IMG/VR virus record: IMGVR_UViG_3300021168_000011 | Location: 1-39,914 of that record | Length of the DNA stretch: 39,914 nt | Origin: a virus | Direction: 5' to 3' (one strand) | Shown here: one piece after another, positions 1 to 39,914 of the stretch | Position numbering within the stretch: position 1 is the stretch's first letter | Layout of the letters: each line of letters opens with the position of its first letter | The notes under the pieces: generated by a model | What the model saw: the letters and a program-made list of their open reading frames with translations, nothing else | What the model was told of the DNA's origin: nothing | Databases searched by the model: none | Made by a program: the position numbers and the translations under genes

Positions 1-127
1 CGGCCAATTCCTGCCCTACCCGACCGACAACGACACGTCGAACACGGGCGAGATCGTGGGCGAAGGTCAGCAGGTATCAGAGAAAGACGTCACCATCGGC
101 CGCGTCACTTTTGGCGCGTTCAAGTTC
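1..127. repeat. Terminal direct repeat (circular assembly overlap)
   Basis: Bases 1-127 are identical to bases 39788-39914. The capsid reading frame continues exactly across the overlap, so the two copies are one locus seen twice and the molecule is circular, or circularly permuted, at about 39,787 bp. A 127-base overlap equals a common assembler k-mer length, so I read it as an assembly signature rather than a physical terminal repeat of the virion DNA. Confidence 0.93.
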
Positions 128-10485: not shown

Positions 10486-12483
10486 ATGAGCGTTTCCGTA
10501 GGATCGATGTCGGCCGGTCTCGGTCTGGATCTCACCGAGTTCCAGACCGGGATGCAGAAGGCGACTGAGCTTGCGCGTACCAACAGCACGCTCATGTCGG
10601 CCGAGATGAAGCGGCAGAGCCGCGAAGGCGCGGAGTCTCTGCGCCTGATTGACGAAGCGATCGGTGTGCACATTTCCCGTCCGCTCACTCGCATCATCGG
10701 CCAAAGCCAGCTGGTGGGGGGAGCCCTGGCCGGCATCTTCGCTTTTTCCGCCGGCGCCGCGATCGCGACGGTCTTTGTCGAGCAGGGCAAGCGCCTGCTC
10801 GAGATGACAGGCGCCCTCGAGGGCTGGAAGGCTATGCTCGGCCTCGCTGGCGAGACGGCGGAAGAGACGGCCAAACTCATGGGCACGGCCGATCAGGAAC
10901 TCATCACCAACCTGCACCGGAAGATCGAGCTGCAGGATGAATACAATCGGCTGATTTTGGGCATGAAGGGCGGAGACTTCGAACGTGCTCACCTCGAACT
11001 GCTGAAACAGGAGACTGCCGAGCTGCAGAAACAGTGGCAGGCGCAGATCGCGCTCACCGGGGCGCGTGCCAATGAGACGGGCTGGCGCGGCACGGCCGTC
11101 AATCTTGCCCAGGTTGCCGGCGGACCGGGGGCTGTGGGCGCATTGGGCCTGATCGGTATCACCGCGGCGAAAGATCAGCAAGAGCAGGTCGTCGCAGCCA
11201 ACAAAATGGCCGAGGCGATGAAGCCGCTCTACGACGCGATCAAACGCATTGGTGACGAGATCCAGAAAAGCGGTTGGAAGATATTCCGTGACGATGCTGA
11301 TGCCGCCGCCGCGGCCGCGAAGGCCGACATTCAGGATCTGCAGGGCGATCTCAAGCGATGGAATGAAACCGCTGACGGCTCCTGGAAGTCGTGGATGAAG
11401 ACCAACGACGAACTCGAAAAAGCGATGGCGAAGATGCGCGAGGTGGGCACTCTGGCCGAGAGCGCGCAACGCGAGCAACGCGCAAAAGCGTTGAACTTTC
11501 CGGCGATCGACACCGTTGGGCCGCCTCCCGGTGCCCCACGGCTCAGCGACCAGGAAGAGCTTGAGAAAGTCACCAACGATCAAAACGAGTCGTGGAAGAA
11601 GGCGGGCGAGATCCTGCAGCAGATCGAGACCCCGGCGCAGAAGTATGCCGCGCAGCTCGCCATTCTCAAGGAACTCGAGAGCCAGGGCAGAATTACCACG
11701 GCTCAATTCGCGCAAGCGCACCAGTTGCTGAACGAGCAACTCGCACAGGGCGAAGACAAGCTCGAGAAGCTGCTCAAGAAGACCGGGGACGCCTCCGCCG
11801 GCATGCAGGCATTCTTTTTGCAGATGCAGAAGACCGCCGGCCGCGACGGCGCCTTCACCTTTGACATTCTCAACAAGGGCCTCGACGGTTTCGAGAACAA
11901 CACGGTGACGGCGCTGACCGGTGGCAAAGCGCAGTGGCAAAGCTATTTTGACGAGCTCGCCAAGATGGCGCTGAAGTTCGAACTCAACAAGCTGCTCACT
12001 AGCGGCCTGACCGGGCTGAAGGGTATCTTCGGCGGCGGCGGCCAGCAAGCTACTGCTGCCACGCAGGCCACGGCCGCGACGATCATGCAGTCTGCGGCCG
12101 CAACTCAGCTTGCGGCTGCGAACATCATGGCTGCTGGTGGCACGGCCGGGGGAGCTGGTGGTGGATTCAATCCCTTCAGCTTAACGGCCTTCAGCGGCGG
12201 ACTGGCCGGCGGTGGCGATCTCACGCCTGGCGCTTCCTACATCGTGGGCGAGCAAGGTCCGGAGCCTTTAACAGTGGATCAGTCCGGGCAGGCATTCATC
12301 TCGCCGCACTCTTCATCGACTCGTACTGGTGGTGGAGACATGTACTTCCACATCGATGCCAAGGGGGCGGAGCTGGGTGTGGAGGAAAAGATCGTGCGAG
12401 CGCTGCAAGCGGCGCGCCCGCGGTTTATCGGAGAAGCCGTTGCCAACTTCAACGAGATCCAGCGCCGGACGGTGCAGCGCTAG
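10486..12483 (+). CDS. Tail tape measure protein
   Basis: This 665-aa protein sets tail length. It is largely alpha-helical with coiled-coil stretches (residues ~130-190 and ~265-450), a hydrophobic segment at ~76-97 (GGALAGIFAFSAGAAIATVF), a Gly/Ala-rich stretch near 520-570, and the characteristic tape-measure C-terminus with GGDLTPGASYIVGEQGPEPL. By the usual ~1.5 Angstrom per residue this predicts a tail near 100 nm. The start lacks a Shine-Dalgarno and follows repeat R2. Its stop codon overlaps by two bases the stop codon of the reverse-strand gene 12480-12701. Confidence 0.92.
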   Translation: MSVSVGSMSAGLGLDLTEFQTGMQKATELARTNSTLMSAEMKRQSREGAESLRLIDEAIGVHISRPLTRIIGQSQLVGGALAGIFAFSAGAAIATVFVEQGKRLLEMTGALEGWKAMLGLAGETAEETAKLMGTADQELITNLHRKIELQDEYNRLILGMKGGDFERAHLELLKQETAELQKQWQAQIALTGARANETGWRGTAVNLAQVAGGPGAVGALGLIGITAAKDQQEQVVAANKMAEAMKPLYDAIKRIGDEIQKSGWKIFRDDADAAAAAAKADIQDLQGDLKRWNETADGSWKSWMKTNDELEKAMAKMREVGTLAESAQREQRAKALNFPAIDTVGPPPGAPRLSDQEELEKVTNDQNESWKKAGEILQQIETPAQKYAAQLAILKELESQGRITTAQFAQAHQLLNEQLAQGEDKLEKLLKKTGDASAGMQAFFLQMQKTAGRDGAFTFDILNKGLDGFENNTVTALTGGKAQWQSYFDELAKMALKFELNKLLTSGLTGLKGIFGGGGQQATAATQATAATIMQSAAATQLAAANIMAAGGTAGGAGGGFNPFSLTAFSGGLAGGGDLTPGASYIVGEQGPEPLTVDQSGQAFISPHSSSTRTGGGDMYFHIDAKGAELGVEEKIVRALQAARPRFIGEAVANFNEIQRRTVQR

Positions 12484-22334: not shown

Positions 22335-22949
22335 ATGATGAACCTGGTTGCACTCTATGCGCGCGTCTCGAAGGACATCTGCCGAACCTGCGGCAAGGCA
22401 GAGGCGCGTCACAACGCCACGATCGATCACGAGTTCAAGGGCCAGGATCCCGAGGCCCAGCTGCAGCCGTTGCGTGAGATGTGCCGCATGAAGGGCTGGA
22501 CGATCGTGAAGGAATACATCGACGAGGGATGGAGCGGGGCCTCGGAGTCGCGGCCGGCGTTCGATGAGTTGATGGCCGTGATCGCCGCGACGGATCCGAA
22601 AAAGCCAGAGACCAGAAAGTTTGACGGCGTGGTCGTGTGGAAGTTCGATCGATTCTTTCGCTCGACGCCGCACATGCTCCAAGTCCTGGACACGCTCAAC
22701 GCGAAGCGCCTCGAGTTTCTCTCGCTCACGGAAGCGATCGACACGTCGACGCCGATGGGTCGCTTGGTTTTCACCATCCTGGCCGCGATCGCGGAATTTG
22801 AGCGCAACCTGATCGCCGAGCGGATCCGCAACGGCATGAAGAAAGCCGGCGCGAAAAGACCAGGCCCGAAGATCAGCGAGCGAGGGCCGTCCCCTTCAAC
22901 TTTGTGGCGCCGGTCTAAGCACGCCGCGAGCCCGCACCAAGACCGTTAA
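22335..22949 (+). CDS. Serine recombinase, catalytic domain, with CxxC-H-H insertion
   Basis: This 204-aa protein has the serine resolvase/invertase fold: LYARVSKD with nucleophile S12, PEAQLQPLREMCRMKGWTIV, VVWKFDRFFRS, and TSTPMGRLVFTILAAIAEFE followed by RNLIAERIRNGMKKA. Between S12 and PEAQ an extra ~20 residues hold C16, C19, H26 and H32, a possible zinc knuckle not found in ordinary resolvases. After residue ~175 the expected DNA-binding helix-turn-helix is missing or too short (SERGPSPSTLWRRS). Likely roles are dimer resolution or inversion. With no integrase present it could be the integration enzyme, but the truncation argues against it. Confidence 0.85.
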   Translation: MMNLVALYARVSKDICRTCGKAEARHNATIDHEFKGQDPEAQLQPLREMCRMKGWTIVKEYIDEGWSGASESRPAFDELMAVIAATDPKKPETRKFDGVVVWKFDRFFRSTPHMLQVLDTLNAKRLEFLSLTEAIDTSTPMGRLVFTILAAIAEFERNLIAERIRNGMKKAGAKRPGPKISERGPSPSTLWRRSKHAASPHQDR

Positions 22950-24494: not shown

Positions 24495-24748
24495 TGAGCC
24501 GTGCCAGCCATGCTGCTGATTTCGAGTGGACGTTCTCGACTCGAGTGCGCGAGCGCAGATGCCACGCGTGCCGCTCGATGACTAGCGGATTTCTCACCAA
24601 CCTACGCACTGGCGTGCGCAAGCCTTTTTGTTCCACCTGTTTTTTTTATGCGGTGAAGGAAGCCAGTCCATCTTCCGCGCCGCGCAAACAACCCGAGCCT
24701 GTGCCGCTGGCGCCGGTTCGAGAAGCGGAGCAGCTTCGCCTATGTTGA
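24491..24748 (+). CDS. Small zinc-ribbon protein
   Basis: This 85-aa protein has RRCHACRS and PFCSTCFFY, two CxxC pairs about 20 residues apart, typical of a zinc ribbon. The C-terminus is Pro/Glu-rich. Coupled by overlapping stop and start codons at both ends. Confidence 0.72.
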   Translation: MMSRASHAADFEWTFSTRVRERRCHACRSMTSGFLTNLRTGVRKPFCSTCFFYAVKEASPSSAPRKQPEPVPLAPVREAEQLRLC

Positions 24749-25443
24749 CCTTCCACGGAAGTCAGGAACTGAAAGACCAACGCATCGCGCAGGTGCGAGC
24801 CCATCGCCTGGCCGACCAGCTCATTCACGGCCAGTACTGGCAGGATGGCAAGGGCTGCGCTGTTGGCTGCACCGTCCACAGCGGAGATCACATGGCTTAC
24901 GAGAGCGAACTCGGAATTCCTGTCGAGCTCGCGTATGCCGAGGATCACATCTTCGAGTCACTGCCCAACGGCAAAGCGCTGATGTGGCCAGAGCGATTTC
25001 TCCAGGCAATTCCTGTCGGCGTGGATCTGCGCGCGACTCACGTGAACAAACGCTACGTCCTGGCGCTGCTCACCGATGAGAAGCGCGGGCTGATGCGGCT
25101 CATCCGCAACGACGAGACGAGGAAGCTTGCGACCGAGCTCGTCGAATTCTTAAAGCAGGGCATCTCAGAGCCGGCGCCCACGGCGGCTCCTGATGCCCTG
25201 CGGAGACTGTCCTATCGCGCCGATCTCGCCTATCTCGCCGATCTCGCCGATCTCGCCTATCGCGCCTATCTCGCCGATCGCGCCTATCTCGCCTATCTCG
25301 CCGATCGCGCCTATCTCGCCTATCTCGCCGATCTCGCCGATCTCGCCGAAATTCTGCTCGAAGTGCTCGCCGCTAGCGCGTCGACCACTTCTCTCAAGGC
25401 GCGTGCGCTGCCCGCGCACGCATCAACGGAGCAAACTCGATGA
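24742..25443 (+). CDS. Phage protein with (Y/D)(L/R)A tripeptide repeat tail
   Basis: This 233-aa protein starts at 24742, overlapping the previous stop. The N-terminal ~140 residues match a common phage/bacterial hypothetical family: YWQDGKGCAVGCTVHSGDH, YESELGIPVELAYAEDHIFE, WPERFLQAIPVGVDL. Residues ~158-202 are 15 tripeptide repeats (Y or D)(L or R)A, an alternating amphipathic helix. Related phage proteins often end in Ala-rich repeats of variable length. The function is unknown. Confidence 0.8.
   Translation: MLTFHGSQELKDQRIAQVRAHRLADQLIHGQYWQDGKGCAVGCTVHSGDHMAYESELGIPVELAYAEDHIFESLPNGKALMWPERFLQAIPVGVDLRATHVNKRYVLALLTDEKRGLMRLIRNDETRKLATELVEFLKQGISEPAPTAAPDALRRLSYRADLAYLADLADLAYRAYLADRAYLAYLADRAYLAYLADLADLAEILLEVLAASASTTSLKARALPAHASTEQTR
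25213..25347 (+). repeat. 15 tandem 9-bp repeats KATCKCGCC, in frame
   Basis: Fifteen consecutive 9-mers differ only at base 1 (T/G, giving Tyr or Asp) and base 5 (T/G, giving Leu or Arg). No other substitution occurs. All six frames are open through it, which produces the apparent PIS/PIA and EIG/AIG repeat ORFs in other frames. Confidence 0.95.
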
Positions 25444-26303
25444 GCACAGGGACCGAAGAGCGCAATCAGCAGATCATTGCAGCGCGCGAGTCTGGCGCCA
25501 GCACCGCCGCAATCGCGAAACGGTTCTCCCTCACGCCAACGAGGATCTTCCAGATCGCTCCGGTACGACGAAGCCAGCGTCAGACGCCGACGCACCTGGT
25601 CGCCGCGGATCCGCAGGAGATGGCTGCGGCGCGCGGTCATCTCGCCGAATTCTTGCAGCGAAAGATCGTCGAGGCGCGGACCGAGGCCAGCGACGTGAGC
25701 GAGGCGATCGCCGCGGCGCTGCAGAACAACTGGAACTGTTCTGCACTCGATCGACAGGATCAGCGCCTCAAGAGCCGCGTGATGTTCTATGAGAAGGCCC
25801 TTGCCGTCGTTGAAGCCGGCTACACACTAATTCCAAACTTCCCGCTCTCGATCTTCGCGGTGCGGGTGAACCGCAAAACCCCACTGAAACGGACCGCATT
25901 CGCTGAGAGCTCCTACAGGGAGACAGACGCCTCCATCCCGGACGAGAAAGCGAAGGCGCTCGCTGCCGGCGAAGGGCGATACGTCTCGCCGTCGCAACTG
26001 GTGCATCGCGAGAACTTCACCGAACAGAAAGAAGGCAAAACGGTGAAATGGACGCAAGCGGCGTGGCCAGTGGAATTCGACAGCGTCGACTTCCCTCTCG
26101 TGGCGGCTCGTCCCGTGGTCATGGAAGCGGCCGCGCGCGCCATGGCGCTGAAGCTCTTCGACGAAATCGGGATCTCCCCGCCTCAGTCGCAGCCTGATCC
26201 ACTGATCATCGGGCGCATCGTCATGAAGCGCCAGGCGGGATGGCGTGAGCCGAAATCTCTCAGCTTCCTGATCGCGTGGCATCTCGATTTGAGGACGCTA
26301 TGA
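25440..26303 (+). CDS. HTH-containing protein of unknown function
   Basis: This 287-aa protein starts by ATGA overlap. Residues ~10-40 form a resolvase- or sigma-like helix-turn-helix (IIAARESGASTAAIAKRFSL, then TPTRIFQI). The remaining ~240 residues have EMAAARGHLAEFLQRKIVEA, a CSALDRQDQRLKSRV segment, and WREPKSLSFLIAWHLDL at the end. No catalytic motif is clear. It may be a regulator or replication accessory. Confidence 0.72.
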   Translation: MSTGTEERNQQIIAARESGASTAAIAKRFSLTPTRIFQIAPVRRSQRQTPTHLVAADPQEMAAARGHLAEFLQRKIVEARTEASDVSEAIAAALQNNWNCSALDRQDQRLKSRVMFYEKALAVVEAGYTLIPNFPLSIFAVRVNRKTPLKRTAFAESSYRETDASIPDEKAKALAAGEGRYVSPSQLVHRENFTEQKEGKTVKWTQAAWPVEFDSVDFPLVAARPVVMEAAARAMALKLFDEIGISPPQSQPDPLIIGRIVMKRQAGWREPKSLSFLIAWHLDLRTL

Positions 26304-26542
26304 CCAGCCCGGCGTTCAGTTCGTTTCTTCCAGAGCGTGTGGTTCACCTAGCGGCCATGTACTGCAAGGAGCACCGCACGGGCTATATACGGCCGCTGGA
26401 TCTCTGCAAAACATTTGGGATGACTCGCCATGAGGCTTACCTCGCATTGTGGGTGGCTTCGCTGATCGGATATCCGGTGAAGCGTCGCCGCGGTGGCTGG
26501 TGGTTTTGGGATAACAAGCACGCAAACGCGGAGGCCTTGTGA
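26300..26542 (+). CDS. Small winged-helix-like protein
   Basis: This 80-aa protein starts by ATGA overlap at 26300. It reads as helix-helix-wing: AAMYCKEHRTGYIRPLDLCK, TFGMTRHEAYLALWVASLIG, then YPVKRRRGGWWFWD. A DNA-binding role is inferred from shape and charge. Confidence 0.65.
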   Translation: MTSPAFSSFLPERVVHLAAMYCKEHRTGYIRPLDLCKTFGMTRHEAYLALWVASLIGYPVKRRRGGWWFWDNKHANAEAL

Positions 26543-26871
26543 GAGAGCTTCGCCAGGAAGTCAGCGAGCTGATGGCGCTGGTGCACCTGATCCCGCCTGA
26601 GCTCGCGGAGGGGCACGTGGCGCAGATGGATGACGTGGAAGTGTGGGATCGATTTCAGCGGTACACGGGAATGGAGTTGAGTGCAGCGGGTCCAAAACCA
26701 GAGCGGAACAACGTGTCTTCTACCCAGTTCTCACGTCCCGCGACGATGACGGCAGGCCTGCCGCACTCAACTCTGTTCCCGGAGCTCCCGACCGAGCAAA
26801 ACGAAAACGGGCACAGTCATGCCAGATTCGGAGGTAAAGCAACTGGGTCCGAAGTCGGCGTTGGGCGTTAG
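26539..26871 (+). CDS. Small protein upstream of rep, unknown
   Basis: This 110-aa protein starts at GTG 26539 (GTGA overlap). The N-terminal ~50 residues are helical and acidic (ELRQEVSELMALVHLIPPEL); the rest is polar and probably disordered. It ends 135 bp before rep. No family recognised. Confidence 0.6.
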   Translation: MRELRQEVSELMALVHLIPPELAEGHVAQMDDVEVWDRFQRYTGMELSAAGPKPERNNVSSTQFSRPATMTAGLPHSTLFPELPTEQNENGHSHARFGGKATGSEVGVGR

Positions 26872-26951: not shown

Positions 26952-26979
26952 GCGTCGGGCGAAGCCCGACGCTGGTTTT
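26952..26979 (+). terminator. GC hairpin with T-run upstream of rep
   Basis: A perfect 9-bp stem GCGTCGGGC / GCCCGACGC with a GAA triloop (26952-26972) is followed by TGGTTTT. It fits an intrinsic terminator for the upstream operon, but its place 33 nt before rep also fits the structured part of a rolling-circle origin. Confidence 0.65.
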
Positions 26980-26987
26980 GCGGTTGG

Positions 26988-27002
26988 TTTCTTTACTAGA
27001 TA
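26988..27002 (+). other. Candidate Rep nick-site-like sequence
   Basis: TTTCTTTACTAGATA matches 12 of 15 bases of the pC194/pUB110-type nick region as I remember it (TTTCTTATCTTGATA). It is AT-rich in GC-rich DNA, lies 16 nt after the hairpin and just before the rep start. Tentative. Confidence 0.3.
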
Positions 27003-27005
27003 CCA

Positions 27006-28127
27006 GTGAATAAGTCGACAGATCGGAGCGAAGTGATTCCAGCGGAAGAAGTTCGCGGTTTTGTGCGCGGAGCTGAGTCAACGCCCGAGTTCCTGGGCGA
27101 AGAATTTCGGCTGCTGGATCGCTATGAACTGCAGGCGGATCTAGTGGAGACGCTGAGACAGACCGAGCATCACTCCCATCTCGCGCCGAAAGTTGCGGCG
27201 TGCCATCACACCTTCCGGGGTTGGCATCGCGAGCGCTGTGGTCACAACTGGGCGGAGGCAGAGAACTCCTGCTCGGTACGGGTGTGCCCTCACGATTCGC
27301 GCCGGCGTTCGCTGGTGCTGGCTGCGCGTCTGGAAAAGTTTCTGGTCGCGAAGATCGGGCTGCGCTACGCCGTGCTGGCTGAGCGGAACTCGGAGAACCT
27401 GGCTGACGGCCTGGTCTCGCTGTGGGAAGCCTGGACCAGGCTACGCCGATCGGTGCGGTGGAAGCACAAAGTTCGCGGCTGCATCGTTGCGCTCGAGGTG
27501 ACCTACAACCGCGAAGAGCGCACATGGCACCCGCACCTCAACGTGCTGATGGAGGGCGAGTACTTCCCTTTCGAGGAGCTGAACCAGGCCTGGATCGAGG
27601 CGACAGATGGCCGAGGCCACACGTCGTTCATTCGCGCGGCCGACGCCGGCACGGTGCGCGAGCTGATCAAGTACGTGACGAAGATTGCGGATCTGGTGGG
27701 TGAGGCGCCGGCGCTCGATGAATTCCTTACCGCGGTCGCGCGCAAGCGCCTGGTGCGCACGTATGGCACGTTCTACGGCATGCCGGTCGATGATGAAGAG
27801 AATCCAGGCCGCGAGTGTCCGGACTGTCACGAGCAGGATGGGATTGTGCGCCTGGGAGTGGTGCCGTCGTACCAGATCAGTCTCGATCTGAATGGCGTCT
27901 TCCGCTTCAAGCGATCGCAGCGCGACGTGGATCGCGATGAGCGGGCGTCGACGGAGTTCTATCCCGCTTTCTTCCAGGATGGTCGCGCGGTGTCGCGCAA
28001 GGCGCATCCGCGCGCGCATGACAACGACTTTCGCGAGTTCAAAGAACTCGTGAGAAAACACGCGGCTACCAGCCGCTCAAGGAGCAATACCGATGGGAAC
28101 AGCAGCAGCAACCCCGATCAGCAATAG
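27006..28127 (+). CDS. Rolling-circle replication initiator, Rep_1 HUH type
   Basis: This 373-aa protein starts at GTG 27006 (an in-frame GTG at 27033 is also possible). It would nick one strand at the origin and stay joined to the 5' end. Evidence: a Cys/His-rich N-terminal region (C66 to C94); the segment GCIVALEVTYNREERTWHPH with HPHLN at 175-179 as the HUH motif; and ELIKYVTKIADL, where Y223 would be the catalytic tyrosine in the Rep_1-type KY motif. A zinc-ribbon-like C271-x2-C274 follows. Rep_1 proteins normally serve small plasmids. It ends inside the next gene by a 35-nt overlap. Confidence 0.85.
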   Translation: MNKSTDRSEVIPAEEVRGFVRGAESTPEFLGEEFRLLDRYELQADLVETLRQTEHHSHLAPKVAACHHTFRGWHRERCGHNWAEAENSCSVRVCPHDSRRRSLVLAARLEKFLVAKIGLRYAVLAERNSENLADGLVSLWEAWTRLRRSVRWKHKVRGCIVALEVTYNREERTWHPHLNVLMEGEYFPFEELNQAWIEATDGRGHTSFIRAADAGTVRELIKYVTKIADLVGEAPALDEFLTAVARKRLVRTYGTFYGMPVDDEENPGRECPDCHEQDGIVRLGVVPSYQISLDLNGVFRFKRSQRDVDRDERASTEFYPAFFQDGRAVSRKAHPRAHDNDFREFKELVRKHAATSRSRSNTDGNSSSNPDQQ

Positions 28128-28455
28128 GCCCCGGCGCGAGATGGTTGAGAGCAAGGCGCCGGAACAATTTCAATTCTCCAAACTCGGCCAGAAGGCGGAA
28201 GGAATTCTGCTTTCGATTGAACCTGCCTTGGTCAAGGGCAAAGAGGCGCTCGAATATCTGTTTCAGGCCGAAGGTGGTGGACGATTCACCTGTCTCGGGA
28301 CGAACGATCTCAACAAAAAACTGCACCCCGGCATGATTGGCCACATGGTGGAGATCCGGTACGAGAACGACGATGCCTCGTTCCAGAAACCGGGACAGAG
28401 CCCGATGAAAGTGTTCAAAGTCCTGGTGAGCAAGGAGAAAGAACCGGGGTTCTGA
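28093..28455 (+). CDS. Possible ssDNA-binding partner of Rep
   Basis: This 120-aa protein overlaps the end of rep. FQFSKLGQKAEGILLSIEPA, a YLFQAEGGGRFTCLGTNDL segment and HMVEIRYENDD with a final MKVFKVLVS strand suggest a small OB-like beta barrel. This pattern is frequent in phage early regions. A role in coating the single strand displaced by Rep is inferred from position and predicted fold only. Confidence 0.7.
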   Translation: MGTAAATPISNRPRREMVESKAPEQFQFSKLGQKAEGILLSIEPALVKGKEALEYLFQAEGGGRFTCLGTNDLNKKLHPGMIGHMVEIRYENDDASFQKPGQSPMKVFKVLVSKEKEPGF

Positions 28456-29429: not shown

Positions 29430-29626
29430 ACGCGAACACCATCGGCGGCATTGGCGCGGTGCTGGCCGCGGTTGTTTTGCTAGTCGCCTATTTCCGTGAG
29501 TGGGGCTACCGGCGCGGTTTCAAGGATGGCCACACTGCGGGTGAGAACGACGCCTGGATGAGTTTTGTTGTGATGGAGCGCCAGGTCGATGAAGAACGCC
29601 AAAAAATTTGGAGGACGGAAGAGTGA
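29426..29626 (+). CDS. Small membrane protein
   Basis: This 66-aa protein has an N-terminal transmembrane helix (residues ~5-22, TIGGIGAVLAAVVLLVAYF) and a charged cytoplasmic tail with RRGFKDGHTAGENDAWMSF. The RGxxDGxxAG pattern resembles small phage membrane proteins. Coupled by ATGA and GTGA overlaps to its neighbours. Confidence 0.72.
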   Translation: MNANTIGGIGAVLAAVVLLVAYFREWGYRRGFKDGHTAGENDAWMSFVVMERQVDEERQKIWRTEE

Positions 29627-30138
29627 AAGCGCTGACTCTTTGGCAACCGTGGGCAACGCTGATCGCGATGGGAGAAAAGCGTATTGAAACGCGCTGCTGG
29701 AGCACGAAGTATCGAGGCGAATTGGCAATTCATGCGGCGGCGAAGTTGCCAGCGAAGTACCTTGGCGCTTCATCCCGCGAAGATGCGTTCCGTGATCAGT
29801 TGGCAGATATCTTCTGCGTGCGTCGAGATCGCGACGACCGCGGCGGAAAGCATGTCGATGATATTTTGCGCCGCCTTCCTTTTGGAAAGGTGGTCTGCAT
29901 CGTTCGTCTCAGTGAAGTCACAGAGATCGACGAGATGTTGCGCGACACAATCACGTACCGTGAACGACTTTTCGGCAACTACGAAAACGGGCGCTACGCG
30001 TGGCACCTCGAAATGATGGAAGTGTTTGAGCCGCCAATCCCCGCCAAGGGAAGCCGAATGCTGTGGCACTGGAATTCCTCTCTCAGCCCCTCCCCCGACT
30101 GCGCTGACTCTACCCAACGCGAAAGGACCACCACATGA
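29623..30138 (+). CDS. ASCH-domain protein
   Basis: This 171-aa protein starts at GTG 29623. KALTLWQPWATLIAMGEKRI followed by ETRCWSTKYRGELAIHAA is the signature of the ASCH (PUA-like) domain. The middle has FGKVVCIVRLSEV and the end YAWHLEMMEVFEPPIP. ASCH proteins bind RNA or modified nucleotides; in phages the target is generally unknown. Confidence 0.87.
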   Translation: MKALTLWQPWATLIAMGEKRIETRCWSTKYRGELAIHAAAKLPAKYLGASSREDAFRDQLADIFCVRRDRDDRGGKHVDDILRRLPFGKVVCIVRLSEVTEIDEMLRDTITYRERLFGNYENGRYAWHLEMMEVFEPPIPAKGSRMLWHWNSSLSPSPDCADSTQRERTTT

Positions 30139-33272: not shown

Positions 33273-33719
33273 ATGGGTGGTAGAGGATCCGGCGGCCACA
33301 ATCGCAAATCTGCTGCTAGGAAAAGGCTGGAAGGCAATGCCGGCAAGCGAAAGCCGAAGTCGAAGTCGCGATCGCGTAGCCATCGCAGCAGCCATGTACC
33401 ATCCGGTCCGCTTGGTCCCGCGCCAGCGCACCTGAAGGCGTCGCAGAAAAACGTTTGGGATGAACTCTCTTCCATTGTTCCTGTTGGTGCCGTCGAAGCC
33501 AGTGACCGCTGGGCTTTCGAACTCCTGGTATGCCTGATGTCAAAGTTCCGCCGCGGCGAGGCAAAGGCCGGAGAGGTAAGTCAGATCTCAAGCCAGCTCG
33601 CGCGCTTTGGAATGACGCCAGCCGATCGCGGTCGCGTAAATGCAAGTCTGCCGCCGTCGACGAAGGACGATCCGTTCGCGAAGTTCAACCTGCCGGCTCA
33701 GCCGCGCCCGACTCAATAG
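33273..33719 (+). CDS. Small terminase subunit (P27-like)
   Basis: This 148-aa protein starts at ATG 33273. The GGRGSGGHNRKSAARKRLEG opening and basic linker, then APAHLKASQKNVWDELSSIV and ASDRWAFELLVCLMSKFRRG, fit the P27/TerS family that recognises the packaging site. The C-terminus (DPFAKFNLPAQ) is typical. It overlaps the large terminase frame by 190 nt. Confidence 0.88.
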   Translation: MGGRGSGGHNRKSAARKRLEGNAGKRKPKSKSRSRSHRSSHVPSGPLGPAPAHLKASQKNVWDELSSIVPVGAVEASDRWAFELLVCLMSKFRRGEAKAGEVSQISSQLARFGMTPADRGRVNASLPPSTKDDPFAKFNLPAQPRPTQ

Positions 33720-35419
33720 ATGCGCACCCGCATGTCACTATCGCTCGCGCTTATTGTGATGATGTTCTCTCTGGCCGCATTCCCGCTGGCAAGTGGACTC
33801 GTCTCGCCTGCCAGCGTCAGTTCGATGATCTTGCGCGCGCCGATCGCAACGATTCCGACTTCCCTTTCATCTTCGATCCCGAACCCGCGGAGCGAGTTTG
33901 TGAATTCGTTGAGCTTAGTCCGCACGTTAAGGGCAAGCGATTCGTCGGCCACAACATTCACCTCGAGCCCTGGCAGTGTTTCATTCTCACCACCGTTTTT
34001 GGATGGATCCATCGCTTTACCCGGTTGCGGCGCTTCCGTCGCGCCTATACCGAGGTGGCCAAGGGAAACGGCAAGTCCGCTCTCACCTCGGCTGTGGCGA
34101 ACTTCTGTGCATTCGCCGAGGGCGAGCCAGGTGCGGAAGTTTTTTCGGCCGCCATCAATCGTGATCAGGCGAGGGTTGTCTGGAACGTCTCCAAGGCGAT
34201 GCTGCGCGCCATGCCTGAATTCTGCGAACGCGCCGGCGTCGAACTTGCCGCTCATTCCATCAACCAGTCCTGCACCAATTCTTTTTTCCGCACTCACAGC
34301 TCCGAGGCCAACAGCGCTGAAGGGAGTCTGCCCTATTTCACCTGCGTCGACGAACTGCACGCTCATCCGAGTCGTGATCTCTACGACAACCTCGATACTG
34401 CCAACGGTAAGCGTGATGGCAGTCTTCTCTGGTCGATCACCACGGCCGGCAGCGACCAGGCCGGCATTTGCTACGAGGTTCACCAGTACGTCGCGCGGAT
34501 CCTCGACGGCACGAATCACGACGAGTCCTTCTTCGGGATCATTTACGCGATCGACGATGACGACGACTGGGCTAAGATCGATAATCTTCCCAAAGCAAAT
34601 CCAAATTGGGGAGTCTCCGTGGATCCCGCGGAGATCGCGCAGAAGCTGCAGAAAGCCCTTCAGATCGCTAGTGCTCAGCCAACATTCCAAATCAAGCACG
34701 CTTGTCGATGGGTCAACGCCGATCACGCCTGGATGGACATGGTCCGCTTCCGCGCCTGCGCGGATCCAAAGCTCTCCGATGAACAGTTTGTTGGAAAGTC
34801 CTGCGTCATTGGTCTGGATCTGGCCAGCAAGATCGACATCCTTGCTGCGCTCAAGGTGTTTTGGAGAGATGAGCCTGGCGTCGGCTCGAAGCCGAAGCGA
34901 CATTACTACGCTTTCGGAAAGTACTGGCTGCCGGAGGCGCGCGTGCAGCAGGCACAGAATTCTCAGTACCAGGGTTGGGCAATCGAGAAGCGCATCGAAA
35001 CCTCGCCGGGAGACGTTAACGACTTTGACCTGGTCGAAGTCTGGATCCGCGATCAGGCCAAGCGTTTCAGCGTCCGCGACGTCGGCCACGATCCTTGGAA
35101 TGCAGTGGAGATAGTGAATCACTTGCAGAAGGAACGCCTAGTCTGTACCGAGGTTCCACAGACGGTGCAGCAACTGAACGAACCGATGAATGAACTGGAA
35201 GCTGCGGTCTATGACGGCCGTTTCCACTACAACGGCGATCCGGTCCTCGAGTGGGGCATAAGCAACGTCGTCGCGCATCGCGATCGCAACGACAATATTT
35301 TCCCGACGAAGGAAAAGGCCGAGAAGAAGATCGATCCCGTCACTGCCTTGCTGAATGCAATCAATCGCATCATCGCCCAGCCGATGGCGCCGTCTCGGCC
35401 GCGGGTGTTCTGCCTATGA
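33530..35419 (+). CDS. Large terminase subunit
   Basis: This 629-aa ATPase-nuclease pumps and cuts DNA. AKGNGKS (177-183) is the Walker A, YFTCVDELHAH the Walker B with D274/E275, VIGLDLASKIDI (D430) begins the nuclease, and VRDVGHDPWNA is the next nuclease-domain motif (Terminase_1 type). Conserved sequence begins near residue 61 (IARAYCDDVLSGRIPAGKWT). The first 60 residues overlap the small terminase gene and look like its frame-shifted shadow, but no ATG, GTG or TTG exists nearer, so the true start is unclear. Confidence 0.93.
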   Translation: MPDVKVPPRRGKGRRGKSDLKPARALWNDASRSRSRKCKSAAVDEGRSVREVQPAGSAAPDSIDAHPHVTIARAYCDDVLSGRIPAGKWTRLACQRQFDDLARADRNDSDFPFIFDPEPAERVCEFVELSPHVKGKRFVGHNIHLEPWQCFILTTVFGWIHRFTRLRRFRRAYTEVAKGNGKSALTSAVANFCAFAEGEPGAEVFSAAINRDQARVVWNVSKAMLRAMPEFCERAGVELAAHSINQSCTNSFFRTHSSEANSAEGSLPYFTCVDELHAHPSRDLYDNLDTANGKRDGSLLWSITTAGSDQAGICYEVHQYVARILDGTNHDESFFGIIYAIDDDDDWAKIDNLPKANPNWGVSVDPAEIAQKLQKALQIASAQPTFQIKHACRWVNADHAWMDMVRFRACADPKLSDEQFVGKSCVIGLDLASKIDILAALKVFWRDEPGVGSKPKRHYYAFGKYWLPEARVQQAQNSQYQGWAIEKRIETSPGDVNDFDLVEVWIRDQAKRFSVRDVGHDPWNAVEIVNHLQKERLVCTEVPQTVQQLNEPMNELEAAVYDGRFHYNGDPVLEWGISNVVAHRDRNDNIFPTKEKAEKKIDPVTALLNAINRIIAQPMAPSRPRVFCL

Positions 35420-35890: not shown

Positions 35891-37717
35891 ATGGGCCTGA
35901 TCTCCGAAACTCGCACGTCGTTGGAAAATCCGCAGACGCCGCTCTCGTTCCCTTCTGAGTGGCTGCTGGATATCTTCAACGGCGGCCGTACCGACTCCGG
36001 GATCCGCGTCTCAGAGATGGTCGCGCTCCAGGTCACCACGATCTGGGCCTGTTGCGAGATTAAGGGTGGCGCGATCGGCGCGCTCGATCGCAAGGTCTAC
36101 GAAAAGATTGTTGGCGACGGCAATCGCATGACGCGCCGCATCGCGCACGAGCATGACTACTGGGATCTGCTGGAGAATCAGCCCAACCCGGAGATGAGCG
36201 CCTTCACGCTCTTCAAAACGCTGCAGGTGCACCGCATGCTCTGGGGCAACGGCTACGCCGAGATCCAGCGCGATTCCAGCGGCCGCATGATTGCGCTCTG
36301 GCCGCGTAACCCGGCGCGCATTCGTCCGAAGCGCGTAGTTGGGCAGATGAAGATCACCACCTCCGATGGCATTCCCGTCACCGTGAAGCCTGGGCAGATG
36401 GTTTACCTCACCACCGAGGGCATGGAGACAGAAAGCCTGGATCCGGAGAGTCCCACGCCTGAGCCCTACAGCGCCCGCGGCGAGCGCGCCATTCTCCCGG
36501 AAGACATGTTGCACATGCCGGGATTGGCGCTCGACGGCCGCGTCGGCCAAAGCACCATTCAGCTCGCGCGTAATGCGGTGGGCCTGGCGTTGGCCACGGA
36601 AAAGTTCGGCGGCAAGTTCTTCGGCAATGGCGCCAAAGGCTATGGCATTTTCAAGATCCCTGGCATGATCTCGGTTGAAGATTTCGAGATGTTCAAGCGC
36701 GAAGTGCAGGAAGCCTGGGGCGGCGAGAACGCGAACCGTCCAATGGTACTGCAGGCTGGCGAGGACTATGTCGCGACGTCGACGAAGCCGAATGAAGGCC
36801 AGTTTATTGAAACCAGAGAGCATCAGGTCATCGAACTCGCGCGCATCTTCACCACGCCGCCACACATGCTGGGAGTGGTTGAAAAGACTAGCCGGGCCAA
36901 CACCGAGCAGATCGGCCAGGAGTTCCTGACGTTTTCGCTGGGGCCGGATCTGAAGTGCTTCGAGCACGAGTTCAAGCGAAAGCTCTTCCCGCGGCCGTCT
37001 GTTGGGCGCAACGCTGGCAAGGTCTTCGGCATGTTTTTCGACACGCGGGTGCTAACCATGCCGTCGGCCAACGATCTGCGGTCTTTCGCGCAGGCCATGA
37101 TCCAGTGGGGCGTGATGGAACCGAACGACGTGCGCGAGTGGATGGGCATGAATCCGCTCAACTGTGCCGGCGCCAATGCTACCTGGATGCAGATCAACAT
37201 GGCGCCCGTCGACCAACTCTTCGAAACGCCAGCACTGCCCGGCGCCGCGGCTGATTCCGAGGAAGACGATAGCGAAGGCGATGCTGGTGGTGGTAAACCT
37301 GCGAAGGTGAAGGCCAGTCGGAAGCGCCTGCTCGCCGCGCGACTTTGCCGCGCCTATTCTCGCCTCTTCCGTGATGCTTTCGGGCGCGTTGCCGCCCGTT
37401 CCAATCTTGATCTCGCGGCCTTCCGGCTGATTTTTCAGCCGGTCCTGGCCTCGATCGGCGAGGAGCTCGAGCGCCATGCGGCCCAGATGTTCTCGGCCGA
37501 CCTGAGCCCTGACGCGCTCTCCAGCTCGAGCTTCCTCGCCGGATATACCGAAACCATGCTTCATCGCGCTCGCAACGAGAAATGGGTCAATGCCAACGGC
37601 AATGCCGATGCGATCTCGCAGCGCGAGCTGGTGCGCGCGGTTCGCGCTCTGGCCGTCGAAGCGTATCGCAACGTGGCCACGGCCGCGGCAAAAGAAGAAA
37701 CCGAGGTGGAATCATGA
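35891..37717 (+). CDS. Portal protein (HK97 family) with long C-terminus
   Basis: This 608-aa protein forms the dodecameric DNA gate. Typical segments are VSEMVALQVTTIWACCEIKG, LFKTLQVHRMLWGNGYAEIQ, LWPRNPARIRP, MLHMPGLALDGRVGQSTIQL and the IFTTPPHMLGVVEKTSRANT region. HK97-type portals are usually ~400-450 aa; residues after ~450 (acidic linker, then a helical RLLAARLCRAYSRLFRDAF domain) are an extension seen in some soil phages. It couples to the protease gene by an ATGA overlap. Confidence 0.93.
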   Translation: MGLISETRTSLENPQTPLSFPSEWLLDIFNGGRTDSGIRVSEMVALQVTTIWACCEIKGGAIGALDRKVYEKIVGDGNRMTRRIAHEHDYWDLLENQPNPEMSAFTLFKTLQVHRMLWGNGYAEIQRDSSGRMIALWPRNPARIRPKRVVGQMKITTSDGIPVTVKPGQMVYLTTEGMETESLDPESPTPEPYSARGERAILPEDMLHMPGLALDGRVGQSTIQLARNAVGLALATEKFGGKFFGNGAKGYGIFKIPGMISVEDFEMFKREVQEAWGGENANRPMVLQAGEDYVATSTKPNEGQFIETREHQVIELARIFTTPPHMLGVVEKTSRANTEQIGQEFLTFSLGPDLKCFEHEFKRKLFPRPSVGRNAGKVFGMFFDTRVLTMPSANDLRSFAQAMIQWGVMEPNDVREWMGMNPLNCAGANATWMQINMAPVDQLFETPALPGAAADSEEDDSEGDAGGGKPAKVKASRKRLLAARLCRAYSRLFRDAFGRVAARSNLDLAAFRLIFQPVLASIGEELERHAAQMFSADLSPDALSSSSFLAGYTETMLHRARNEKWVNANGNADAISQRELVRAVRALAVEAYRNVATAAAKEETEVES

Positions 37718-38934
37718 TCGAACGCCGGTTTTTGAAGTCCGCGCAGATCCGCGCCGACGGCGATGGCCACATCACTGGTCACGCGGCCGTGTTCAACGAA
37801 GAATACGTGTTGTGGGATGGCGACAACTATCGCGTCGTTGAAAAAATTAAGCCCGGAGCCTTTACACGTGCGCTCAAGGACAAAGACGACGTGCGCTGCC
37901 TCTTCAATCACGATCCGAACCAGGTGCTCGGCCGCAGCACCTCTGGAACGATGAAGCTGAAGCAGGACGACGTCGGACTCTATTTCGATTGCACTCCGCC
38001 TGACACTCAACTCGGCCGCGACGTCGTGGCGCTCATCAAGCGCGGTGATATTTCCGGCTGCAGCTTCGCCTTCATGGTGAGCAAGGAAACCATCACCGAA
38101 GAGGAGGTGAATGGGAAAACGGTCCGGACGCGCGAGATCGAGGAAGTGGATCCACTGCTGGATGCCAGCCCGGTCACCTATCCCGCCTACACGGGTACTG
38201 ACGTGAATGCTCGTGCCATCGAGATGCGCGCTCAGATGTTTCCCCAGGGTGTGCCGGCGAAAGTGCTCGAGCTGGTGCCTCAGCTGAGGGCGGACTCCGA
38301 AGCTCCGGAAAAAGATTGTCGATGTGGATGCCGAGCTTGTTTCTCCGGCGATCACGACGAATGCGAGATGTACATGCAGAGCTGTGGCGATGAGAGCTAC
38401 TGTGATCACTCGATGGCGCGCTCCGCTCGTTCACAGCGTGACGGAAAACCCACCAAGCGCGTCGACGGCGAAGATCTCACAGCCGGTTGCTTTATCTACG
38501 TGGGCGATGCTGAGAAACCGGAAACCTGGGCTCTGCCATGGAAGTTCAAGAGCGAGGCGAAGATCAAGTCGCACCTGCGCAACGCGCTCGCTCGCTTCAA
38601 TCAGACGGCGAAGGTCCCGGCTGACAGCAAGGCCGCAGCTTGGAAGAAGCTGGTGCGCCTCTGCAAAAAATACAGCATCACCGTCTCTGATCAGGAAGCG
38701 AAGAGCTGGGGCTTAACACCCGAGCAGCGCGTCAACGTCGGATCCACGAGTGACTGCCAGTGCGACTGTGCCGAGTGTCAGGTCGGCGACTGCGAGAACT
38801 GCAGCGAGCCTGACTGCCAGGGCAAGGATGACGGCTGCGATCACACCGGAGCTGAGGACGATGACGCCGATCGCTCCGCGGCGATCTCTGAGATCAACGC
38901 ACGCCTGCGGCGTGCCGGCATGACGGCCGTCTAG
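37714..38934 (+). CDS. Prohead protease with Cys-rich C-terminal extension
   Basis: This 406-aa protein starts at 37714. Residues 1-175 are an HK97 prohead protease (U35): GHAAVFNEEYVLWDGD, IKPGAFTRALK, LFNHDPNQVLGR (H66 catalytic) and GDISGCSFAFMVS (S117 probable nucleophile). Beyond the usual ~200 aa there is C-cluster 1 (C202, 204, 206, 209, 217, 224, 230), a DUF6582-like part (~247-320, LRNALARFNQ ... KKLVRLCKKY), and C-cluster 2 (C348 to C375, eight Cys). The clusters are probably metal-binding. Confidence 0.88.
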   Translation: MIERRFLKSAQIRADGDGHITGHAAVFNEEYVLWDGDNYRVVEKIKPGAFTRALKDKDDVRCLFNHDPNQVLGRSTSGTMKLKQDDVGLYFDCTPPDTQLGRDVVALIKRGDISGCSFAFMVSKETITEEEVNGKTVRTREIEEVDPLLDASPVTYPAYTGTDVNARAIEMRAQMFPQGVPAKVLELVPQLRADSEAPEKDCRCGCRACFSGDHDECEMYMQSCGDESYCDHSMARSARSQRDGKPTKRVDGEDLTAGCFIYVGDAEKPETWALPWKFKSEAKIKSHLRNALARFNQTAKVPADSKAAAWKKLVRLCKKYSITVSDQEAKSWGLTPEQRVNVGSTSDCQCDCAECQVGDCENCSEPDCQGKDDGCDHTGAEDDDADRSAAISEINARLRRAGMTAV

Positions 38935-39083: not shown

Positions 39084-39914
39084 ATGAGCGTTACCCGCAT
39101 TCGTGAACTGAACCAGCAGATCACTGCGATCAACGAAGGGACTGAGCTTAAAGGTCTCCGCGTGATCCTGCGCGACACCAAAGACAAAACCAAACGGGCA
39201 GAAGCAACAGCGAAGGTCGACAGGATTCTCGACGATATCGATGTGCTCCTCGCTGAGCGCGACCAGTTGCAGGCGGAAGTAAACCGCGAAGCGCGCCTGG
39301 CTAAGCTCGATCCCAGCGGCCGTCGCGAAGATCCCATCAACGCCCCGGCTGGCGACAAGAAAGCTGCAGTTCAGGTCTACACCAGGGCTCTGCAGCGCCA
39401 CGGCATCATGGTGGTGCGCGACAAGAACGGGGACTTCCGCAAGAAGGATCTTGCCCTCGAAGTGGTGCACAGCGATGTGCGGATGGTCGTGGAAGAGCTG
39501 AACTACCGGTACTGGCAGGCGTTCAAGCGCTACTCGTTTTTCCTTGCCCAGGGCGATCCCAGCGCGGCCAGTGTCGAAGACCGCAACATCGTCTTCGGTC
39601 GCGATGAGGAAATGCGCGATTTCTGCCGTCCCTTCACCATGACCGAGAAAGAGCAGCGTGACATGGGGATCGGAACCAACACGCTGGGCGGGTATTTTGT
39701 GCCGCAGGGCTTCGTGTACGAGATCGAAGAAGCCCTGAAGTACTACGGTGACATGCTCAATGTGTGCGAGATCCTTGACACCGCCACCGGCCAATTCCTG
39801 CCCTACCCGACCGACAACGACACGTCGAACACGGGCGAGATCGTGGGCGAAGGTCAGCAGGTATCAGAGAAAGACGTCACCATCGGCCGCGTCACTTTTG
39901 GCGCGTTCAAGTTC
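39084..39914 (+). CDS. Major capsid protein, N-terminal part
   Basis: This is the first 277 codons of the capsid gene; it continues at base 128 of the window. AAGGA lies 8 nt before ATG 39084. Residues ~1-75 are a charged coiled coil (RIRELNQQITAINEG, RILDDIDVLLAERDQLQAEV), the HK97-type delta/scaffolding domain normally removed by the prohead protease. The shell domain starts near residue ~190 (TLGGYFVPQGFVYEIEEALK). See also 2-823. Confidence 0.95.
   Translation, partial: MSVTRIRELNQQITAINEGTELKGLRVILRDTKDKTKRAEATAKVDRILDDIDVLLAERDQLQAEVNREARLAKLDPSGRREDPINAPAGDKKAAVQVYTRALQRHGIMVVRDKNGDFRKKDLALEVVHSDVRMVVEELNYRYWQAFKRYSFFLAQGDPSAASVEDRNIVFGRDEEMRDFCRPFTMTEKEQRDMGIGTNTLGGYFVPQGFVYEIEEALKYYGDMLNVCEILDTATGQFLPYPTDNDTSNTGEIVGEGQQVSEKDVTIGRVTFGAFKF

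Follow-up and report, generated by a model that had tools for sequence, protein, structure and literature searches.

A plasmid-type Rep_1 initiator and a candidate rolling-circle origin in a tailed-phage genome, carried as a cassette that appears to have spread among phage backbones

How does a tailed phage that carries a plasmid-type replication initiator copy its genome, and does it persist in its host as a plasmid? The question is raised by a stretch of viral DNA of 39,914 nucleotides, IMG/VR record IMGVR_UViG_3300021168_000011, which was analysed over its whole length and is referred to here as the window. A reading made from the sequence alone had pointed to a 373-aa protein with the HPHLN and KYVTK motifs of the Rep_1 HUH family, encoded just before an OB-like protein, and had concluded that the set fits a phage that replicates by rolling circle and may persist as a plasmid. 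We examine the initiator and its neighbour, the relatives that share them, the lifestyle of the phage and the DNA around the start of rep.

The window is an HK97-type tailed phage (Caudoviricetes), since it encodes the large terminase subunit, portal protein, prohead protease, major capsid protein and tape-measure protein (Table 1) together with a tail-fibre-like protein, an endolysin and a holin-like protein. Its ends are an exact 127-bp direct repeat (1..127 identical to 39788-39914), probably an assembler overlap that closes a circle of 39,787 bp, and the capsid ORF is continuous across the junction and, once joined, encodes 508 aa that match PF05065 at 3.6e-51. The repeat and the capsid ORF support the circular contig of the sequence-only reading, and the other features that it listed were recovered as well: a serine recombinase of resolvase type is present, the ORFs scanned gave no recognisable polymerase, helicase or primase, no CI-like repressor was recognised in the window, and no tyrosine recombinase or relic of one was found anywhere in it. 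Many ORFs of the window have no recognised function, and another replication protein could hide there.

Table 1. Features of the window; roles given as candidate or probable are predictions.
Feature	Position	Strand	Description
Tail tape-measure protein	10486..12483	+	phrog_339 8e-11
Palindrome TTTCAATTCA-CC-TGAATTGAAA	21974..21995		22 bp, perfect; upstream of resolvase; candidate recombination site or operator
Resolvase-type serine recombinase	22335..22949	+	204 aa; PF00239 8e-37; candidate multimer resolvase
Small ORF	26539..26871	+	Upstream of rep; encloses inverted repeat; 42-50% identity in G001, G002, G004, G006
Conserved inverted repeat	26666..26781	+	Arms 26666-26687 and 26760-26781; candidate single-strand origin or rep leader structure
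GC-rich hairpin GCGTCGGGC-GAA-GCCCGACGC	26952..26972	+	Just upstream of candidate nick; not in all loci
Candidate double-strand origin TTTCTTTACTAGATACCA/GTGAATAAGTCGACAGAT	26988..27023	+	Overlaps rep start codon
rep	27006..28127	+	GTG start, 373 aa; Rep_1 (pC194/pUB110-type) HUH rolling-circle initiator
OB-fold protein	28093..28455	+	120 aa; overlaps rep end; probable ssDNA-binding partner of Rep (predicted)
Terminase large subunit	33530..35419	+	phrog_9 1.5e-154; PF20441, PF03354
Portal protein	35891..37717	+	PF04860 1.1e-76
Prohead protease	37582..38934	+	PF04586 1.3e-44
Major capsid protein	39084..39914	+	Continues through circle junction to ~position 823; PF05065

The Rep protein matches the Pfam family Rep_1 (PF01446) over residues 86-259 with E=4.7e-16 and 59.4 bits, above the curated cut-off of 33.2 bits, and the Pfam search gave no match to Phage_GPA (PF05840, P2/PhiX174 gpA) even at E<=1. 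The protein therefore differs in family from the P2-like initiators, as had been claimed. gpA belongs to a separate HUH family with two tyrosines; the conserved motif of the window Rep holds a single one. The two motifs are present as H175-P-H177 (HPHLN) and K222-Y223-x-x-K226 (KYVTK). The window Rep was aligned with Reps from viruses (two), chromosomes or MAGs (three) and plasmids (four); E164, H175, H177, E219, K222, Y223 and K226 are among the invariant residues, at only 21-26% identity between the window Rep and the aligned plasmid proteins. The essential residues of pC194 RepA are Tyr214, Glu210 and Glu142 (PMC5703833), and the Glu-x3-Tyr spacing is the same in the window Rep (E219/Y223). 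Judged from the alignment, Rep thus carries the HUH pair and counterparts of all three RepA catalytic residues (Y223, E219, E164). Its N-terminal part is cysteine/histidine-rich and has a weak match to the IS91-type zinc domain. With a mean pLDDT of 49 the structure model is too weak to establish the HUH fold, though strands and helices of the core come in the order expected; Foldseek and VIA returned generic ferredoxin-like folds, and the weak Foldseek matches include HUH domains of circovirus, AAV and parvovirus. Small plasmids of Bacillus, Staphylococcus, Streptococcus, Acinetobacter and others match Rep at ~21-31% identity among the matches listed. The window Rep has no match in the INPHARED phages by tblastn, in the PDB by sequence, or in PHROGs.

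The protein encoded after Rep is modelled by AF2 as a five-stranded OB barrel with a helix between strands 3 and 4. The Foldseek list is made up mostly of OB folds (uS12, RPA, Teb1, LEF-3, mtSSB), with no single match below E 0.001, and topology and list together support the OB-like assignment made earlier. From its fold the protein probably binds single-stranded DNA as a partner of Rep. The OB gene follows rep in every relative examined except G006, and a search with the OB protein only returned five further contigs, with Rep upstream in all three that have enough upstream sequence. G006 (L026, beside rep) is the sole near-full relative with no detectable OB gene.

Rep, usually accompanied by the OB gene, is common to four otherwise unrelated tailed-phage backbones. 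The lineages comprise the window and G004; G001, G002 and G006; G003 and G005; and G007. Of these, G001 (7 kb) and G004 (16 kb) are only fragments. Their terminases are phrog_9 in the window, phrog_15 in G006, phrog_2-like in G003 and G005, and phrog_979/2-like in G007. Across the structural lineages little is held in common besides Rep, usually with OB; the resolvase, a repeat protein and small ORFs next to rep are further links between the window and G002. A plasmid-type replication cassette, delimited by sequence comparison as rep with its overlapping candidate origin and usually the OB gene, appears to have spread among tailed phages. Related Rep/OB pairs also occur in Acidobacteriota chromosomes (L043, L044, L045). 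A scan of genome contigs with four Reps found nothing, and with eight Reps it found one Acidobacteriia contig. When 50,697 annotated phages were searched with six Reps, a query set that other Rep_1 branches in tailed phages could escape, no phage turned up with a comparable intact Rep as its sole initiator; the tailed-phage matches were only fragments and an accessory-looking copy in one large Listeria phage.

Tyrosine recombinases are found in five of the six near-full relatives (G002, G003, G005, G006 and G007), as full-length integrases in G002, G006 and G007 and as short tyrosine recombinases in G003 and G005, and the Rep cassette therefore occurs also in phages with integrases. A homologue of the window portal, 71-72% identical, lies on a 2-Mb contig from the Acidobacteriota genome G321, where a prophage of ~40 kb shows the same structural gene order and has a tyrosine recombinase. 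A Rep_1 relative was not found in this prophage, and the search for its att core gave only a 12-bp chance-level repeat. Because the nearest structural relative is a chromosomal prophage with a tyrosine recombinase, the window backbone belongs to integrating phages. The host is probably a member of the Acidobacteriota. If its integrase was lost, the phage might exist in a plasmid-like state, be a virulent derivative or rely on another recombinase.

In the plasmid-like state, Rep_1 would keep the prophage as an extrachromosomal circle, with the resolvase resolving multimers at the palindrome and the integrase lost as unneeded. The window has no tyrosine recombinase though its relatives do (in G002 and G006 beside the same resolvase), its resolvase is accompanied by a conserved palindrome of two 10-bp arms and a 2-bp centre, and the contig is circular; a circular contig alone does not distinguish a plasmid state from phage DNA that is being replicated or packaged. 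The resolvase is 81-84% identical in G002 and G006, and the palindrome is conserved in the three phages (L018 ~13447, L025 ~2684); in G002 and G006 it lies a short way upstream of the resolvase, in the window ~0.3 kb farther from it owing to an insertion. A role of this recombinase as a serine integrase was rejected, as its 204 aa comprise only the catalytic domain and a short tail. The same resolvase is paired with an integrase in G002 and G006, however, and for this reason it is no sign of plasmid life. A plasmid replication gene in a phage genome, one mark of phage-plasmids, is present, but the ParA partition gene that is common in them, if not universal, is not: ParA (PF13614) is absent from all eight records, window included, in a search confined to this partition type, and no immunity repressor and no known partition or addiction genes were recognised. 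The nearest backbone relative, moreover, is an integrated prophage. We consider this account of the prophage rather unlikely. The fuller version, a tailed phage-plasmid that no longer integrates and is inherited as a ~40 kb rolling-circle replicon, for which it would rely on an ssDNA-binding protein of its own, a second-strand origin upstream and a serine resolvase together with a site for it, seems a shade less likely again; if true, the replicon would be far above the usual size of rolling-circle plasmids. Of the earlier conclusion, then, the rolling-circle part stands, backed at the level of sequence by the Rep family, the catalytic residues, the origin-like block and the OB neighbour, while persistence as a plasmid is a possibility of low probability, given near-full relatives most of which have tyrosine recombinases and none of which has ParA. 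The window is most likely a phage of a temperate lineage that uses plasmid-type rolling-circle replication.

Such replication calls for an origin. A block of DNA over the rep start (TTTCTTTACTWGATACC) resembles the double-strand origin of pC194 and recurs in nine of ten viral contigs. The pattern CTTTACT[AT]GATACCAGTG.ATAA.TCGACAGAT spans the rep start in 8/8 loci, namely the window and the first seven viral relatives; L055 retains the block with small changes and L063 keeps the flanks with the core lost, and hence the core is counted in nine contigs. A related sequence, TTTACTTGATA (TTTACTTGATAACTGCGAATAAGTCC), occupies the same position in the Acidobacteriia contig L036, and the chromosomal elements L043-L045 have ACTTGATA near the 5' end of rep. 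Similar motifs are found in plasmids, as TTTCTTTTACTTGATAC (TTTCTTTTACTTGATACTATTCATTAACTCG) just before rep, around the circle, in an Acinetobacter plasmid and as TTTCTTCTTATCTTGATAC (TTTCTTCTTATCTTGATACTAG) upstream of rep in an S. thermophilus plasmid. Turned to the same strand, the pC194 origin reads TCTTTCTTATCTTG^ATAATA (PMC5037232). As in pC194, a nick-site-like sequence thus lies near rep, TTTCTTTACTTGATACC in the relatives and TTTCTTTACTAGATACC in the window, whose core CTAGATA is one base off the usual CTTGATA. By analogy with CTTG^ATA of pC194, the nick is predicted between 26999 and 27000 (CTAG^ATA). The window block matches the pC194 origin at 13/20 positions, which 5/500 shuffles equalled (~1 in 100); since this match is modest for the window alone, the case for an origin rests on conservation across loci. 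Among the invariant residues in the first rep codons, 4/4 are written with a single codon in all seven sequences, as opposed to 10/102 later in the gene (Fisher p=2e-4, relatedness ignored). Given its conservation across loci, its likeness to plasmid and pC194 motifs and the fixed synonymous codons, we read the block as a candidate double-strand origin. L002/L003 have a hairpin of different sequence from that of the window, with the same GAA loop in the same place.

The block could instead be a promoter or translation signal, such as a leaderless start, with the true nick site elsewhere. It does overlap the GTG start, and no Shine-Dalgarno sequence is seen directly upstream. In the Shewanella, Xanthomonas and S. 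thermophilus plasmids, however, the matching motif lies hundreds of bases from the rep start, and the motif matches the published pC194 nick site (PMC5037232). We regard a signal of this kind as distinctly improbable and retain the block as the candidate origin.

Farther upstream, the conserved inverted repeat folds more stably than shuffled sequences (z -4.1 as RNA, -2.8 as DNA). Paired cells amount to 94%, and 4 pairs are changed on both sides compared with 1.4 in shuffles, counted over six distinct sequences. It ends ~215 bp before the predicted nick. Single-strand origins, too, are usually found upstream of the nick (PMC5037232), and the repeat could be one. It is absent from L008 and sits inside a conserved small ORF, so that its conservation may be partly coding and its role is put forward here as a proposal. 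Rfam gave no match. A nearby hint of a 'DNA pol epsilon zinc finger' in 26276-26542 was rejected (E 0.14).

The Rep family, its catalytic residues, the conserved pC194-like block and the OB neighbour together support the rolling-circle reading well, and we think it probable that the phage replicates by plasmid-type rolling circle from Rep_1 and the conserved candidate origin, as a module moving between tailed-phage backbones. Rep would be made from the GTG at 27006 and bind near its own start, with His175, His177 and Glu164 holding the metal, and Tyr223 would nick the plus strand in the conserved block at ~26999/27000. The 3' end at the nick would prime the leading strand, extended by a host polymerase with a UvrD-like helicase of the host, and the displaced strand would be coated by the phage OB protein. 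The second strand would be begun by the host, possibly at the inverted repeat. As in pC194, hydrolysis through Glu219 would terminate the round, or else this step would be skipped and concatemers would form for packaging. The cassette would move between unrelated backbones, most of which have the tyrosine recombinase that the window lacks.

Rep might also be accessory or defective, left over from a captured plasmid as in certain Streptococcus phages, with a phage protein that escaped recognition replicating the genome. Annotated phages, both tailed ones and satellites, do contain rep fragments of plasmid origin, many ORFs of the window belong to no recognised family, and the record of the tailed Listeria phage LIS04 (OQ999172, 'protein Rep') includes a Rep_1-like gene that seems intact and lies in what looks like an accessory region. 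That gene lies in a 181-kb genome beside a NucA/NucB nuclease and a dCMP deaminase and shows no sign of a main-initiator role; its product is 27% identical to an S. thermophilus plasmid Rep and was not found by the search with the window Rep. The Rep described here, by contrast, is complete, and in eight phages (53-67% identity) none of its catalytic residues varies; it is linked to the OB gene and an origin-like block and is kept across four backbones. An accessory role is therefore very unlikely. That the contig is a chimera of a small plasmid and a phage joined by assembly is scarcely credible, as the same cassette recurs between differing flanks in phage contigs of several datasets (at least seven besides the window) and the capsid ORF is unbroken across the closure, even if the contig is metagenomic and its 127-bp repeat probably an assembler overlap.

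The system resembles the pC194/pUB110 plasmids in its Rep domain family, in the set of Tyr, Glu(-4), upstream Glu and HUH, in a nick-site-like sequence with the candidate origin close to rep, and in an upstream hairpin in the position of a single-strand origin. It differs from them in being a 39.8-kb tailed-phage genome with an OB partner gene, a candidate origin over the rep start codon and a cysteine-rich N-terminal part of Rep. Like P2-type phages (gpA, PF05840), it is tailed, has an HUH initiator and presumably uses rolling-circle replication in the lytic cycle; unlike them, it has no PF05840 match. Rep_1 initiators have been exchanged between otherwise similar genomes of PM2-like/Vinavirales proviruses (PMC9502842), which are untailed, whereas the carriers described here are tailed phages. 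Spread of HUH reps from plasmids to viruses is illustrated by the pUB110-like Rep of the inovirus Propionibacterium phage B5 and by pEC316_KPC-like Reps in myoviruses, corticoviruses and inoviruses (PMC6668415). In the part of that survey dealing with the pUB110-like cluster, B5 is the one inovirus named and no tailed phage is named (PMC6668415). Plasmid-to-virus spread of HUH reps in general and Rep_1 replacement in PM2-like proviruses are thus already known; the origin-like block over the rep start, the conserved inverted repeat and the sharing of the cassette across backbones are new here.

These results document a pC194-type initiator with its candidate origin, usually with an OB partner, as an exchangeable replication cassette of tailed dsDNA phages (four backbones), which Acidobacteriota also have in proviruses of untailed appearance and in an integrative element. 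They make it testable how a plasmid mechanism that ends with a single round and leaves long stretches of DNA single-stranded can copy 40 kb and feed packaging. The cassette is also a compact candidate replicon for Acidobacteriota vectors.

Several minor observations concern the surroundings of the cassette. An ASCH-domain protein (PF04266, phrog_3193) is encoded at 29608-30138, just downstream of the replication genes. On the other side, at 25211-25347, a 9-bp unit (CCTATCTCG type) repeated 15 times in tandem encodes a three-residue LAD/LAY repeat near the end of the ORF 24628-25443; gene and repeat are also present in G002 (L003 8940-9563). The array could be a set of binding sites near the origin, or only a repeat protein. 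A 'PSK_trans_fac' antitoxin hint in this ORF falls on the repeat stretch and was rejected as compositional. HerA/FtsK-like ATPases, absent from the window, are encoded near the Rep cassette in several relatives (L003 6863-8707, L029 37-1782, G006 36062-37624).

The chromosomal carriers differ in content. In L043 (8850-17653) and L044 (8792-17175), Rep_1 and OB genes are found with an AAA/Zot-like ATPase, a lysozyme and many small proteins; tailed-phage genes were not recognised in these two Acidobacteriota proviruses, which are possibly untailed (PM2- or FLiP-like) viruses. L045 (7756-18657) is an integrative element with a tyrosine integrase, OB protein, Rep_1 and restriction-modification-looking genes. 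A miaB-like gene and a small conserved gene lie just upstream of both the G111 provirus (L044 3845-5682) and the G321 prophage (L079 1447-3403), and this neighbourhood is perhaps a shared integration hot spot.
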